Shown: positions 1-27,037 of the stretch, in pieces | Layout: each line of letters begins with the position of its first letter | Numbering within the stretch: position 1 is the stretch's first letter | Source: a virus | Length of the DNA: 28,875 nt | Reading direction: 5' to 3' (one strand) | IMG/VR virus record: IMGVR_UViG_3300017756_000071 | Coordinates: 1-28,875 of that record | Position numbers and translations under genes: made by a program | Notes under the pieces: generated by a model | Databases searched by the model: none | The model's input: the letters and a program-made list of their open reading frames with translations, nothing else | What the model was told of the DNA's origin: nothing

Positions 1-560
1 ATGCAGGAACTGGTATCACAACAGGAACTGACAATACGCTAGTCGGATGGGGAGCTGGAGATGGACTGACTGGTGCAGCAACAAGTAATACTTTAATTGG
101 TGCAGAAGCTGAAGCATCAAGTGCTGGTGCAACAAACCAAATTGCAATAGGAGCAGCCGCAGTAGGTCAAGGAAGTAACACAGTAGTTTTAGGAAAATCT
201 AGTGTTAGCGCTGTTTATGCCGCTAGGAATGCAAGTGCATCAGTAGAAGCATCAGCATTTAATGTTGGTTCAGATAGAAAATTAAAAAAGAATATAAGAG
301 ATACTGCTTTGCAAGGCATTGATTTAATTGACCAAATGCAAGTTAGAGATTTTGAATGGAAAGATAACGATGTGACTGTTAATGGTGGTTTAATTGCACA
401 AGAGTTAAAAGAAATTTATCCAGATGCTGTTGGAAAAAGAAATGATGATGGAGAGGATGGCGATACTACAATGACTATCTCAAGAGAAAGCATGGTTCCT
501 TTATTAATTAAAGCAGTCCAAGAGCTATCTGCAAAAGTAAAAGAATTAGAAAGTAAATAA
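1..560 (+). CDS. Tail fibre/spike C-terminus with S74 intramolecular chaperone (5' partial)
   Basis: The frame is open from the window edge (first full codon at 3) to the TAA at 558-560, so the N-terminal part lies outside. The visible first ~85 residues are a Gly/Ala/Thr-rich repeat (NTLVG, NTLIG, NQIAIG, NTVVLG), the beta-roll pattern of YadA-head-like trimeric fibres. Then comes GSDRKLKKNI, the junction typical of the peptidase S74 chaperone. The catalytic Ser would be the codon at 270-272, and cleavage would release the last ~96 residues. The rest fits the family: GLIAQELKEIYPDAV, SMVPLLIKAVQEL and a terminal coiled coil. By family knowledge the chaperone trimerises the fibre and then cuts itself off. 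The fibre is probably the receptor-binding protein. The call is firm for the S74 domain; the fibre type is inferred. Confidence 0.88.
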   Translation, partial: AGTGITTGTDNTLVGWGAGDGLTGAATSNTLIGAEAEASSAGATNQIAIGAAAVGQGSNTVVLGKSSVSAVYAARNASASVEASAFNVGSDRKLKKNIRDTALQGIDLIDQMQVRDFEWKDNDVTVNGGLIAQELKEIYPDAVGKRNDDGEDGDTTMTISRESMVPLLIKAVQELSAKVKELESK

Positions 561-3827: not shown

Positions 3828-4120
3828 TGGCAAAAAAGAAAAAAGACCCTAGGGTTGGTACAGGTAAAAAACCTAAAGGTAGTGGTCGTAGATTATATAC
3901 AGATGAAAATCCTAAAGATACAGTAAGTATAAAGTTTGCAACTCCTACTGATGCAATTAAAACAGTTTCTAAAGTAAAAAAAATAAATAAACCCTTTGCT
4001 AGAAAAATACAAATACTAACAGTAGGAGAACAAAGGTCTAAGGTAGCAGGTAAAAGTGCACAAGCAACAATTTTTAAAAAAGGCAAAGAAGCTATTAGAA
4101 AAGCTCATGGAAAAAAATAA
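3827..4120 (+). CDS. Basic protein, 97 aa
   Basis: This gene starts at GTG in a TAGTG one-base overlap, a variant of the TAATG junctions around it. The N-terminus is KKKKDPRVGTGKKPKGSGRR, followed by LYTDENPKDTVSIKFATPTD and a helix-strand segment with KINKPFARKIQILTVGEQRS. The RRLYTDENP...VSIKF and ARKIQILTVGEQR parts look conserved and I recall similar text in cyanophage and other marine phage proteins, without function. It is the last of the basic series and is directly coupled to the endolysin start. Confidence 0.7.
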   Translation: MAKKKKDPRVGTGKKPKGSGRRLYTDENPKDTVSIKFATPTDAIKTVSKVKKINKPFARKIQILTVGEQRSKVAGKSAQATIFKKGKEAIRKAHGKK

Positions 4121-4500
4121 TGTATAGATTTGGTAAAAAAAGTAGAGAAAGATTAAAAGGTGTAGATTCTAAACTAGTTAATGTCCTTAATGAACTTATT
4201 AAAATTATGGATGTTACTATAATAGAGGGTCTACGAACAAAAGAAAGACAGCAAGAGTTGTTAAAGAAAGGAGCTACTAAAGTTAAGTATTCTAAACATA
4301 TGGATGGTAAAGCTGTAGACTTAGCACCGTACCCTATAGACTGGGAAAATAGAGATGGTTTTCACTATATGGGTGGTATGATTAGAGGAATAGCTAAACA
4401 ACTTAATGTTAAAGTTCGTTGGGGTGGAGACTGGGATTCTGACGGTGATGTAAAAGACAATGGCTTTGATGACTTAGTTCATGTGGAGATACTTGATTAA
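4120..4500 (+). CDS. Endolysin: M15 zinc peptidase (L-Ala-D-Glu / D-Ala-D-Ala type)
   Basis: This 126-aa single-domain enzyme cuts peptidoglycan stem peptides at lysis. SKHMDGKAVDLAP gives the SxHxxGxAxD signature with zinc ligands His60 and Asp67. WGGDWD (residues 101-106) and DLVHVEI supply catalytic Asp118 and the third zinc ligand His121, matching the spacing in the T5 endolysin (Asp three residues before the last His). The N-terminal helix with EGLRTKERQQELL is also typical. No signal peptide is present, so release needs a holin, consistent with the membrane genes upstream at 1746-2601. It starts and ends in TAATG overlaps. Confidence 0.92.
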   Translation: MYRFGKKSRERLKGVDSKLVNVLNELIKIMDVTIIEGLRTKERQQELLKKGATKVKYSKHMDGKAVDLAPYPIDWENRDGFHYMGGMIRGIAKQLNVKVRWGGDWDSDGDVKDNGFDDLVHVEILD

Positions 4501-22762: not shown

Positions 22763-23878
22763 TTATAAAAATTTATGCTTTCTCTTAAGAAAGTAATCGT
22801 GAAGTTCATCACCTAGTACTTTTTTAAATGTATATCTTATATCATCTCCTAGAAACTTATCTATGTGTTCTTTACTACTCTCTAGCTCTATACCTTTCTC
22901 TATAATTGCATTTAGTATACGAACCCAGTTGCGTATCTTCGTAGGGTTAAGAGTCCCAGAGTGTAGTCTAAACTCTAGGCTACCGTGAAAATATCTAGAG
23001 TGTATATTAAGACCACAGTACCTAGCATCATTATACTTTTCTATACTAGGGTTACAATCCATAGACTCATAGTATTCTTGTACCAACATCTCTTCACTAT
23101 GTATACTTAGCAGATTATCTACACTCATTGGAAACTCTTTACACCACCTAGAGTCTTGCCTAGATGGAGGCATCATAGACTTTAGGTATGGCTCAAACTC
23201 TTTGTATACTATAGCTATATAAGCAACCTGTCTATAGTCTAAGTTAGTAGAGTCAAAGTGTACGTGTAGTCCGCAACTAGAGTTTACAAGAGCATCATGC
23301 TCTATTGCCCACTCTGAAAGGTCTCGTATCTGTTGATATAGTATGTCTCCACTTGAGGGAGAACTAACCATCTCTATACCTTCGTAATCAGATGGAGGAT
23401 TTATAGAACCATCATAAGTATGCGCCCAATTTCTAGGGTAGTACATACTATCTTGTATAGGGTACATACATTCAGCTTCTATACCTACTAGCCTTCTAAC
23501 ATCTAAGTATTCAAATGTTTCTGATAACCTAGACCTAATAGGGGGAATCGCATCCTCTATTCTTTCTATGCACATAGAAATTATATCAGGCTCACAATTA
23601 CTGCAGTATGGGTCATCATTGTACCAATAAACATTGTCTCTATGCATTTCATCTTCGCAATCACAACAATAGGTAAAATTATCGTGATAGCAATCATCGC
23701 AGTAGTATTCATCATGTATAGTATAATGCACAGACTCTAGATTTGATTCTCCTCCGCAATTTTCGCATATACAATACTCTTCGTCATAGCAAGTATCACA
23801 TAGACTATGATTCTGAGTGATAGTATCAGATTCACAATTAACACAATACTCTATATTTTCTTCTCTCTCGGTTGACAT
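22763..23878 (-). CDS. Amidoligase with three N-terminal zinc ribbons, 371 aa
   Basis: Residues 1-100 carry three consecutive CxxC...CxxC units (Cys12/15/27/30, 38/41/60/63, and 71 or 72/74/92/95). The catalytic part fits the putative amidoligase family (glutamine-synthetase/GCS-like, Pfam Amidoligase_2): VGIEAE (131-136), DGS (156-158), EMVSSP (169-174), CGLHVH (202-207) and the long GLNIHSRYFHGSLEFRLHSG (289-308) ending in NWV. By family knowledge these enzymes activate a carboxylate with ATP and join it to an amine; the substrate is unknown. GGAG precedes the ATG. It lies one gene away from a class II amidotransferase that could supply ammonia. Confidence 0.87.
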   Translation of the reverse strand: MSTEREENIEYCVNCESDTITQNHSLCDTCYDEEYCICENCGGESNLESVHYTIHDEYYCDDCYHDNFTYCCDCEDEMHRDNVYWYNDDPYCSNCEPDIISMCIERIEDAIPPIRSRLSETFEYLDVRRLVGIEAECMYPIQDSMYYPRNWAHTYDGSINPPSDYEGIEMVSSPSSGDILYQQIRDLSEWAIEHDALVNSSCGLHVHFDSTNLDYRQVAYIAIVYKEFEPYLKSMMPPSRQDSRWCKEFPMSVDNLLSIHSEEMLVQEYYESMDCNPSIEKYNDARYCGLNIHSRYFHGSLEFRLHSGTLNPTKIRNWVRILNAIIEKGIELESSKEHIDKFLGDDIRYTFKKVLGDELHDYFLKRKHKFL

Positions 23879-23879
23879 A

Positions 23880-24191
23880 CTAGACTCCTATATTAGTAGT
23901 AATAATCCCAAGTACAAAAGCGTTAACAACTTTAATCCAATCCATTTTCTTAAGAGCATCGAATATACGAGTCTCTATCTCTACATCACTATCTTCTATC
24001 TCTATGTTACCTAGAGTAGAAATCTGCTCTTGTAAAAACTCTAGATACTCTTCGTAAGAGTGTTGATTTAAAAAAGGATTCTTTTTAGCTCTATTATATA
24101 AAGTCTCTATAATATACTTCTTAGACTTTAGTTTAATAGGGTCAGGTAAACCTATAAGTATTACCTTCTTCTTAGAAGGGAAATCTGTCAT
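23880..24191 (-). CDS. Unknown cassette protein, 103 aa, possible membrane tail
   Basis: It begins in a 20-base overlap with the end of the amidotransferase gene, with AAGGAG upstream. The N-terminal half is basic and helical (KKVILIGLPDPIKLKSKKY, SYEEYLEFLQEQISTL). The C-terminal half has a hydrophobic stretch, WIKVVNAFVLGIITTNIGV, long enough for a short membrane segment or a buried helix. I do not recognise it. Its place between the amidotransferase and an amidoligase suggests it belongs to the same pathway, perhaps as a carrier or anchor. Confidence 0.6.
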   Translation of the reverse strand: MTDFPSKKKVILIGLPDPIKLKSKKYIIETLYNRAKKNPFLNQHSYEEYLEFLQEQISTLGNIEIEDSDVEIETRIFDALKKMDWIKVVNAFVLGIITTNIGV

Positions 24192-25176
24192 CTTTATTCT
24201 CCTTGTTTCTTTTAGTATAAGATGGTAAGTCTATAGATAACTCACAATCTAAACATAGGTTTTGGTCTGCAACTGTAGATACTTCTTCACTATCTACCCA
24301 CTCATAACAGTAGTGGCACATCATTGTAGGGTTGCTAGATTCTATTAGAGCAGTACTCGCTGGACTTGGATTCATATCACAAGTAATGTAGTCTGTAGGT
24401 CTACTCCAGTTAAGTCCACTATAATAGTCGTCAATCTTTCTCCATTGACTCATAGTATGAAAAGACTCTTTCTCTACACTAGGAACGTTAGAGAAATTAT
24501 CTGTATCGTAAGTATGTATGTAGTCTTTTGCTACTACACTAGTAGGTAGTACTAGACCAGCTTTACTCATAGACAGCTGTAATATCTCCTTAGTAGATGC
24601 CCATAGCAAAACTCTAGCTTTCTTCCAATAGGCTACGTGCATAGGTCTACCAGACTCTCTAGCTAGATGTATCTTTCTATTACTATCTTTTATCCAAGTA
24701 ATAGCAAAGTCTCCGTCTATATCCTCAAATGCGTTTTTCATCTTGTTTCTATTAAGAGATGCAAAGATTACCTGAGAGTCTACCTCTACATTTTTACCTA
24801 GAGACTTTGCTACCTTATTATAGTTATGTATTATACCGTTATGCGCACCTACAACATCACCTACAGTAAACGGATGAGCATTACGAGTCTTTATTACTCC
24901 ATGAGTAGCTAGCCTTACATGACCCATAGCTATAGTAGTATCTACGTCTATACTATCTAGAAGTTCATCCCAATCTCCAGTAGTCACTAGAGAAGATGAA
25001 TCAAGTAGTGTCTTGTAAGTCTGTCTACTATTAGGTTGTATGATAGACATTCCTGTACTATCTGTACCTCTAATAGAGGACTCATCTGCTAGTTCTGTCA
25101 GTACATCTTTTAACATCTCTAGCTGATTTTTTGTTTGATGTCCGCTAGTCTTAGCGAACCCGAATATACCACACAT
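24172..25176 (-). CDS. Class II glutamine amidotransferase with C-terminal zinc ribbon and SSB-like tip
   Basis: The 334-aa protein starts MCGIFGFA: after Met removal Cys2 is the N-terminal nucleophile. Other key parts are RGTDSTG (36-42), GHVRLATHG with Arg88, NAHPF, HNG (Asn113, Gly114) and Asp133 in VDSQVIF, so the glutaminase site looks complete. There is no sugar-isomerase or asparagine-synthase domain, so ammonia must go to a partner; the two neighbouring amidoligases are candidates. A zinc ribbon follows (Cys287/290, 308/311). The extreme end is DDRFPF, very like an SSB acidic tip. AAGGAG precedes the ATG. Confidence 0.9.
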   Translation of the reverse strand: MCGIFGFAKTSGHQTKNQLEMLKDVLTELADESSIRGTDSTGMSIIQPNSRQTYKTLLDSSSLVTTGDWDELLDSIDVDTTIAMGHVRLATHGVIKTRNAHPFTVGDVVGAHNGIIHNYNKVAKSLGKNVEVDSQVIFASLNRNKMKNAFEDIDGDFAITWIKDSNRKIHLARESGRPMHVAYWKKARVLLWASTKEILQLSMSKAGLVLPTSVVAKDYIHTYDTDNFSNVPSVEKESFHTMSQWRKIDDYYSGLNWSRPTDYITCDMNPSPASTALIESSNPTMMCHYCYEWVDSEEVSTVADQNLCLDCELSIDLPSYTKRNKENKDDRFPF

Positions 25177-25189
25177 ATATGTAGTCTCC

Positions 25190-27037
25190 TTATTTGTTTT
25201 CGTTTATCCTTTTCTCTATGTATTCTGTACTCTCTCTACCACCAATACTATCTATAATCTCCATAGCATTACTAGTATTAGAAAGTACCTGTTGATACAA
25301 TTTTTTCATTAAATGTAAATCTTTAGAGGCATCCATTAGTCTATTAAGAAACTTTATCCAGCTTCTAATAGGAGGAGAGTAGATTTCTCCCTCATGATAC
25401 CTGAACTCTACAGTTCCTAAGTAGAACCTAGCGTGTATATTTGTACCTATATATCTACTACTGTTATACTTATTTAGATTGTAGTAGTCTGAACTCATAT
25501 TATAGTAACTATTTACTAGAGTAGGTAAGTCCCCTATCTCTAATATTTCTCTAGGAGACATATCTATTCTCTTAGCATACTCATTATCTCTTCTATCTAC
25601 AGGCATGGATTCATAGATAGAATCCTGTATAGAGCTAATTATCATTAGCAAGTTCTTAATCTCTACAAATCCAAAGTCTATAGCATTCATATGTATATGT
25701 ATACCACAGCTTGCATCTGTAAAGTTATCATGGTCTCTGTGTGCTTTCTCTAAGTCTGATAAGGCACTAGATACTTCAGAGCCAACTAACGGTCTAGATG
25801 TTCTATATTCTACTCCACCATCTGATAGAGACCCATCACTTACTACTTCAAAATTACTAGGTATTACATTGTAGCGTTCATAATCGTCTCTATTTTCATA
25901 TTGAGTAATAACCTCACTTTCTATGCCTGTATGTCTAGTATAAGTATTGTCCATATGTATTACCTCTGGCAAATCACTAGCTCTGTACGGAGCATACAGT
26001 CTATGATTTAAGTGTAGATTAGCGCAGCTAGTACAGTAACTATTTTGTTCTAGATTAAAGTACTTCCTACTTTTTTCTGTATCTCCATTAATAAATTCTC
26101 TTAGTTTTAACTTTCTATTATAAACACCATCTATTGAATGTATATAGTCTAGGTTTACCTTCTCTATCTTTTTACATTTAAAACACTCTTGAAAGAGATA
26201 ATTAGCACATCTACTATGTAAAAATTCTACACCCATATCTTCGTATATGCGACTTCTCTTAGGTGAGTATCTATCTCTATGATACATATTATCTATTGTT
26301 CCTAAAGATAGACAAGCACCACATGGTACTTCTACCTCTACACAACAACTTCTACATACAAAATCCATTTGTCCTATATCCGTTTTACCTAGATAATTAC
26401 TTTCTCTACAATAATGACATCTATAATAAACTATGCTCTTTTTATTTACAGAGCTATATGTTTTATGTAGTACCATTTGCGCTCTTTTATCTAAATAAAA
26501 TCTATTAGGCATTGAAACTCTATAGTCAAATCTATCTACAAACCTACCAGACTTCCAAAATTTATTAGTATAAAACCAAGAAGTATAATCTCTTGATTCT
26601 ATAGAGTTATTTCTCTGGTTCATATACTCTTCTGTTATGTAGTATGAGGCATTATCTCTATGTATTATGTCAGTCTCTTCGCACCACGGATGTGTTAACA
26701 TTGTACTCATCTCTCCATAGCCTCTAATAGTAGGTAGTCTATCTTTACAATCTCTAGTACAGAATAGTATATCTCTAGCTCTAGCTATTAGAGTTATATT
26801 AGAATAGATACCTTTAAGTACTACGTTAGGATGATTCTCTATTTTGTCAGTTTCTATATCTAATACATCTACTAATCTAAACAATCTAGATTTTATAGTA
26901 GGTAGAAAGTTTACCCTTCTTATCATTTCTCCATCTATTAAAATATCATCTAAAGAATGATTTTTGAATTTAAAATCACTATCTACTAATCTTGTATGTG
27001 AATAATTAGCTAAGTAGACTTCATTTGAATAGAACAT
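25190..27037 (-). CDS. Large amidoligase with novel N-terminal domain and zinc ribbons, 615 aa
   Basis: This is a second amidoligase, clearly different from the first. The core includes GIESE (371-375), DGS (401-403), VEYRTSRP (409-416), CGIHIHM (444-450) and GTNIHARFYLGTVEFRYHEG (531-550) with SWIKFLNRL. Before it lie cysteine pairs (Cys207/210/228/231, 239/242, 285/288/335/338) that should form two or three ribbons. The first ~200 residues form an unrecognised domain with no obvious motif. GGGAGG precedes the ATG; the stop lies 13 bases before the amidotransferase start. The function is ATP-dependent amide bond formation on an unknown substrate. Confidence 0.87.
   Translation of the reverse strand: MFYSNEVYLANYSHTRLVDSDFKFKNHSLDDILIDGEMIRRVNFLPTIKSRLFRLVDVLDIETDKIENHPNVVLKGIYSNITLIARARDILFCTRDCKDRLPTIRGYGEMSTMLTHPWCEETDIIHRDNASYYITEEYMNQRNNSIESRDYTSWFYTNKFWKSGRFVDRFDYRVSMPNRFYLDKRAQMVLHKTYSSVNKKSIVYYRCHYCRESNYLGKTDIGQMDFVCRSCCVEVEVPCGACLSLGTIDNMYHRDRYSPKRSRIYEDMGVEFLHSRCANYLFQECFKCKKIEKVNLDYIHSIDGVYNRKLKLREFINGDTEKSRKYFNLEQNSYCTSCANLHLNHRLYAPYRASDLPEVIHMDNTYTRHTGIESEVITQYENRDDYERYNVIPSNFEVVSDGSLSDGGVEYRTSRPLVGSEVSSALSDLEKAHRDHDNFTDASCGIHIHMNAIDFGFVEIKNLLMIISSIQDSIYESMPVDRRDNEYAKRIDMSPREILEIGDLPTLVNSYYNMSSDYYNLNKYNSSRYIGTNIHARFYLGTVEFRYHEGEIYSPPIRSWIKFLNRLMDASKDLHLMKKLYQQVLSNTSNAMEIIDSIGGRESTEYIEKRINENK

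Follow-up and report, generated by a model that had tools for sequence, protein, structure and literature searches.

What might a virus do with two amidoligases and a glutaminase encoded side by side? The question is raised by IMG/VR virus record IMGVR_UViG_3300017756_000071, a complete record of 28,875 bases (GC 33%) that is referred to here as the window. Four consecutive open reading frames (ORFs) on its minus strand encode, in this order, a large amidoligase (LigL), a stand-alone class II glutamine amidotransferase (GATase), a small orphan protein (SML) and a small amidoligase (LigS) (Table 1). An earlier note, made from the letters alone, had seen in this locus a possible novel pathway in which glutamine-derived nitrogen is passed to two ligases. 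The protein families, fold and linkage described below agree with a glutamine-fed two-ligase system; the novelty of the pathway and the suggested DNA target are not supported. The operon very probably puts amide bonds on some target during infection. The reading preferred here, tentatively, is of an early operon encoding a glutamine-driven complex that forms amide or isopeptide bonds, with a wall precursor or gamma-glutamyl compound as its likeliest target. The kind of system is already known; what is new is the duplication of ribbon-bearing ligases, the presence of SML and a fixed four-gene layout.

The four-gene operon and its conservation

ORF calling agreed with the earlier placement of all four genes on the minus strand. 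A 13-bp gap separates LigL from GATase, the 3' end of GATase overlaps SML by 20 bp, and SML and LigS are 1 bp apart. Pfam HMM searches confirmed the predicted two amidoligases and glutaminase, far over the cut-offs: both ligases belong to Amidoligase_2 (PF12224; cut-off 22 bits), with LigL scoring 83.5 bits over residues 379-567 and LigS 77.8 bits over residues 148-325, close to the core limits first proposed (371-567 and 131-319), and GATase belongs to GATase_6 (63.2 bits, cut-off 27). PHROGs assignments of the operon proteins agree with Pfam. None of the four proteins was matched by PADLOC, and NCBIfam gave for GATase only distant matches to GlmS, AsnB and PurF, far under cut-off.

Relatives (~42 contigs) were gathered by searching viral contigs with each of the four proteins and with a LigL alignment, and gene order at their loci was read from ORF calls and profile searches. 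The order LigL-GATase-SML-LigS, on one strand, was found in 39/39 uncut loci, all from uncultured viral contigs; four further loci are cut by a contig end and retain whatever portion of the block fits. The SML/LigS gap is 1 bp in 31 of these 39 loci, and the block is still intact where LigL identity falls to 25-33% (L107-L113). Such conservation of gene order is far beyond chance; the genes are linked, as the earlier reading supposed, and not scattered. The ratio of non-synonymous to synonymous substitution rates (dN/dS) was lowest for SML (0.10-0.15), followed by GATase (0.20-0.23), LigS (0.23-0.30) and LigL (0.37-0.49), with none above 1; all four genes are under purifying selection.

Among 50,697 phage records, SML found no match, and LigL and LigS found partial matches to amidoligases at <60% identity, with nothing closer. 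In a scan of bacterial genomes the four-gene block was not found; the amidoligases returned were all plain ones, mostly from Firmicutes. One 63,940-base record (G015; loci L102 and L104) contains two complete four-gene blocks and two cyclotransferases, and probably represents two related phages joined during assembly.

Table 1. Features of the amidoligase operon and the associated cyclotransferase (window positions unless a relative's record is named)
Feature	Position	Strand	Evidence
LigL, large putative zinc-ribbon amidoligase, 615 aa	25190..27037	-	Amidoligase_2 E=2.8e-23; model pLDDT 84.8; predicted GS/GCS fold
LigL accessory N-terminal domain, residues 1-203	26429..27037	-	No family match; not detected in short LigL
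LigL zinc-ribbon-like cysteine array, residues 204-345	26003..26428	-	CxxC at 207, 228, 239, 285, 335, and C277
LigL predicted ATP-dependent carboxylate-amine ligase core, residues 366-615	25193..25942	-	Invariant in 32 sequences; GS-fold strands
GATase, stand-alone class II glutaminase, 334 aa	24172..25176	-	GATase_6 E=3.2e-17
GATase C-terminal CxxC...CxxC ribbon (C287, C290, C308, C311)	24244..24318	-	Invariant in 17 sequences
SML, 103-aa conserved orphan	23880..24191	-	In every uncut lineage locus
LigS, small putative zinc-ribbon amidoligase, 371 aa, LigL paralogue	22763..23878	-	Amidoligase_2 E=1.5e-21
LigS ribbon array	23579..23845	-	CxxC at 12, 27, 38, 60, 71, and C92; invariant in 15 sequences
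LigS ligase core	22844..23500	-	Invariant in 15 sequences
Gamma-glutamyl cyclotransferase (GGACT)	L044:14468-14845 (G001:C1:34468-34845)	opposite to operon	GGACT E=2.1e-12; phrog_2520

Ligase cores and glutaminase

An alignment of 32 sequences, extending to single-ligase relatives, identified, in LigL, E373, E375, D401, E410, H447, H449, R528, H535, E544, R546 and H548 as invariant in the core; the equivalent list for LigS, from 15 sequences, is E134, E136, D156, H205, H207, R286, H293, R295, E302, R304 and H306. In the AlphaFold2 model of LigL (mean predicted local distance difference test (pLDDT) 84.8, core mostly >90), the ExE, HxH and ExR residues sit on strands 370-377, 445-451 and 542-549. 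Foldseek and VIA-align of this model matched residues ~342-615 to YbdK (1r8g, Z 12.6), its Salmonella relative (1tt4, Z 12.7), plant glutamate-cysteine ligase (2gwc, Z 12.1) and many glutamine synthetases (Z about 10-11); the VIA-align list is taken up by ligase-core matches and says nothing on the ribbons or the N-terminal domain. YbdK and the plant enzyme thus share the ligase-core fold (Z 12-13), but are only 8-12% identical to the phage core and possess no ribbons, and among solved-structure sequences no relative of LigL was found (one match, E=0.79). On the strength of the model, the LigL core is of the glutamine synthetase/gamma-glutamylcysteine synthetase (GS/GCS) fold class, which bears out at the level of fold the GCS-like site expected from the motifs. 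From their positions on the core strands and general knowledge of the GS fold, the conserved residues are predicted to be metal and ATP ligands.

Profile alignment of LigL with LigS spans both ribbons and ligase (LigL residues 204-612, probability 100%). In a tree built from 62 cores, LigS forms one clade (98/90) and LigL and LigS share one side of a branch (89/92), although the placement of L026/L028 in this tree hangs on a branch of 4.25 and CW02 and phiM6 group by a long-branch join. The deep LigL members L111 and L112 fall beside LigS, so the duplication is old and its exact root unsure. LigL and LigS are old paralogues with ribbons and ligase in common.

GATase retains the catalytic set C2, R88, H112-N113-G114 and D133 in 17/17 aligned homologues, matching that of GlmS (alignment to 1xff), as befits the complete glutaminase site first attributed to it. 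It has indeed no fused synthase domain, and gene order suggests the two ligases as its putative partners. Class II enzymes of this kind liberate ammonia from glutamine.

Cysteine ribbons and the N-terminal domain of LigL

The CxxC ribbons proposed for all three enzymes are present and conserved through the lineage, and their arrays would be expected to bind zinc. In LigL, eight of the ribbon cysteines are invariant and three nearly so (32 sequences), and every full-length ligase of the lineage carries several CxxC pairs; none was found in 12 amidoligases of named phage records. C-terminal CxxC pairs do occur on the GATases of phages tf and CW02 and of Zobellviridae phage KZY1. Of a triple-ribbon layout thought possibly undescribed, the GATase ribbon is thus not unique, whereas the ligase ribbons separate this lineage from those 12 named-phage amidoligases. 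An unusually cysteine-rich amidoligase, in which the CxxC pattern matches 25 times with overlaps, was also observed beside a GATase in another contig (L116:7458-8804).

Amino-acid identity between LigL and that of the near relative L009 is 0.52 in the ribbons, 0.65 in the N-terminal domain and 0.77 in the core, while the values for LigS are 0.54 (ribbons) and 0.87 (core). Ribbon spacers and the LigL N-terminal domain thus diverge faster than the ligase core as the cysteines stay fixed. This is the pattern to be expected of a recognition surface under changing pressure, but relaxed constraint may also account for it.

The two ligases had been described as differing in their N-terminal domains. 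This is true of LigL residues 1-203, the only part without a counterpart in LigS, but the ribbon regions align. Pfam and PDB sequence searches with these residues gave no match, and the model falls partly below 50 pLDDT at residues 110-132. A profile of the domain (NDOM) found no match in the 457-458 aa LigL of L107-L109; because of this, the domain looks dispensable for the system.

It is because of the ribbons that a protein target is a serious rival to a wall precursor. The complex would then modify a host or phage protein, with ribbons and N-terminal domain docking onto it and acidic side chains being amidated or joined to an amine, so that host machinery is redirected. Such a role would suit ribbons carried by all three enzymes and absent from the 12 named-phage amidoligases checked, their rapid divergence around fixed cysteines and the replication genes that adjoin the operon. 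No candidate protein has emerged, however, the fast spacers may reflect weak constraint only, and the cyclotransferase described below points to gamma-glutamyl chemistry; a protein target is considered doubtful, though in likelihood it comes closest to the preferred reading.

The small orphan protein

SML is never missing from an uncut locus of the lineage and is the slowest-evolving of the four genes, a part that the earlier note had underrated. It has no Pfam family. Its model is alpha/beta but of low confidence (pLDDT 64, predicted template modelling score 0.54), and a fold search with this low-confidence model gave no match; against solved-structure sequences only weak matches were obtained, the best to hydroxyacyl-CoA dehydrogenases (E=0.0025). 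Two candidate identities were rejected. A Pup-like tag, as in Pup/PafA-like conjugation, would call for a fixed Glu/Gln C-terminus, and the last residue of SML varies among V, G, S and A across 34 sequences (most of the lineage has TNIGV, other members S, A or G). Furthermore, no profile match links SML to the ~190-aa protein encoded between the ligase genes in tf and in Vibrio phage 1.293.O. SML is treated here as an obligate small partner. A bolder proposal, considered rather improbable, is that LigL, LigS and GATase form one ribbon-tethered complex that modifies some host macromolecule apart from the wall, SML being its protein carrier or the conjugated substrate; it would, if true, be a phage amidation/conjugation machine for which no precedent was found.

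Genome context and the gamma-glutamyl cyclotransferase

Relatives of 43-46 kb carry a PD-(D/E)XK nuclease and a DnaB helicase in the same run as the operon, and the terminase, portal and head genes on the opposite strand. The small and large terminase genes flank a gamma-glutamyl cyclotransferase gene whose product keeps the YGTLR motif and a conserved Glu. Pfam detected GGACT, always outside the operon, in 9/9 lineage records and in 3/3 deeper members tested. It was missing from the earlier list of parts as the window record stops short of it, synteny placing the gene ~3 kb beyond the end. Cyclotransferases cleave gamma-glutamyl amines, and the chemistry is therefore probably centred on gamma-glutamyl or glutamate carboxyls.

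A cyclotransferase as in the glutathione cycle, together with the YbdK/glutamate-cysteine ligase-like fold of the LigL core, would also suit auxiliary metabolism, in which the product of the operon would be a small gamma-glutamyl peptide, or glutamine nitrogen would be diverted to phage synthesis. For phage ZRK32, a role in nitrogen metabolism has similarly been suggested (PMC10945688). A free small molecule needs neither ribbon arrays nor two diverged ligases, however, and a search limited to the RimK model detected no counterpart of the glutathione-synthase-type partner present in ZRK32; this explanation is regarded as unlikely.

Hypermodification of DNA bases or nucleotides, a target raised in the earlier note, would have the ligases attach amide-linked groups to carboxylated bases of phage DNA. 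Ribbons can bind nucleic acid, and DnaB and recombination-type genes lie near the operon. Yet thymidylate synthase (PF00303) was found in 0/12 records, with 9/14 controls matching (other base-modifying families were not searched), and no DNA polymerase or base-modification gene was recognised among those genes of the relatives run against PHROGs or Pfam. The suggestion has gained no support and is very improbable.

Other genes observed include one for a metallophosphoesterase-like protein just before the terminase small subunit of a relative (L044:12753-13514; phrog_221 E=1.5e-22, no Pfam match) and, in the window, the C-terminal end of a tail protein with an S74 intramolecular chaperone (3-560, plus strand; E=1.8e-11). 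A small M15-type peptidase is also encoded in the window (4120-4500, plus strand; PF13539 25.4 bits, cut-off 25); it is possibly the endolysin and would be relevant if the operon alters wall peptides.

Comparison with known systems

An amidoligase, a class II GATase and a cyclotransferase co-occur in Arthrobacter phage Salgado, Vibrio phages 1.208.B and 1.293.O, tf and CW02. A phage amidoligase cassette was reportedly described by Iyer et al. in 2009, and the functional statements found about such cassettes trace to that prediction. These three enzyme classes have been seen together in unrelated phages (PMC5513430), and a fuller set has been named a "peptidoglycan modification cassette", with wall modification against superinfection proposed (PMC5498523; PMC10580990). 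With amidoligase and class II GATase recurrent in phages and named in print, the pathway cannot be called novel. The association is wider still: an amidoligase is followed by a cyclotransferase within 1 kb in 27/46 bacterial loci, mostly Firmicutes, and plain Amidoligase_2 genes of other viral contigs and of Firmicutes genomes (L117-L147 and L151-L193) often have a cyclotransferase close behind them.

The cassettes of LUZ24-like and phiEco32-like phages and Zobellviridae likewise combine Amidoligase_2, class II GATase and GGACT in an early region near replication genes. The present lineage differs in its two ribbon-bearing Amidoligase_2 proteins, its SML and a cyclotransferase outside the operon. 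The recurrent phage gene set often includes ATP-grasp and PF14395 (COOH-NH2 ligase type 2) ligases as well. Here PF14395 was found in 0/12 records, with the positive controls tf, KZY1 and CW02 all matching, and no RimK-type ATP-grasp was found with the RimK model, itself not tried on phage ATP-grasp positives. In Arthrobacter cluster AL (Salgado gp97-99), a cyclotransferase, one amidoligase and one stand-alone class II GATase are also present, but the three genes are adjacent in one run, ligase and GATase have no ribbons, and there is no SML. In the uncultured phages L114, L127, L150 and L026-L028, a CxxC-array ligase is followed by a CxxC-bearing GATase; they have one ligase per pair, no SML and, in the records tested, no GGACT match. 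L114 and L122 show a different kind of doubling: each has two amidoligase-GATase pairs, separate from one another, within one stretch.

The MurT-GatD families pair a Mur-like ligase with a class I amidotransferase, whereas here a GS-fold ligase is found with a class II GATase. MurT-GatD, a glutaminase and an ATP-dependent ligase that give amides in peptidoglycan glutamate amidation (PMC3267633), is a working analogy only. No description of the duplicated ribbon ligases, SML and the fixed layout was found in the open-licence literature searched, though Iyer et al. 2009 may mention part of the layout.

Proposed function

GS-fold ligases form amide bonds via an acyl phosphate. Combined with the chemistry of the GATase and the cyclotransferase, this argues for a glutamine-fed amide- or isopeptide-forming system acting on glutamate-type carboxyls. 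In the preferred reading, GATase would hydrolyse glutamine and hand the ammonia on to one ligase or to both; LigL and LigS would use ATP to activate a carboxylate, which they then couple to ammonia or another amine; the ribbons and the extra domain of LigL may serve in target binding or in keeping the complex assembled, with SML acting as an obligate small partner; and the separate cyclotransferase would remove or recycle gamma-glutamyl amines. An altered host wall precursor or other gamma-glutamyl compound could then block superinfection or tune lysis. The analysis shows the families of the enzymes, the fold class of LigL, the invariance of catalytic residues, the conservation of ribbons and operon, and a cyclotransferase in the same genomes; activity, complex formation, order of reactions, target and benefit are inferred.

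Several points weigh against it. With neither PF14395 nor a RimK-type ATP-grasp found, the operon falls short of the complete cassette in the literature. The cyclotransferase lies outside the operon on the other strand, so its tie to the ligases exists at the level of the genome. A small wall precursor is a poorer match for ribbon arrays than a protein or nucleic acid would be, and the literature searched gave no biochemical test of any phage member.

Amidoligase cassettes occur in phage isolates of Pseudomonas, Escherichia, Vibrio and Arthrobacter. The lineage described here offers a compact version, four tightly linked genes plus one cyclotransferase, suitable for cloning as a single unit; its two diverged ligases, which share one glutaminase, also lend themselves naturally to comparison. 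The identity of the target would decide whether such operons serve in protection against superinfection, in the control of lysis or in the modification of host proteins.

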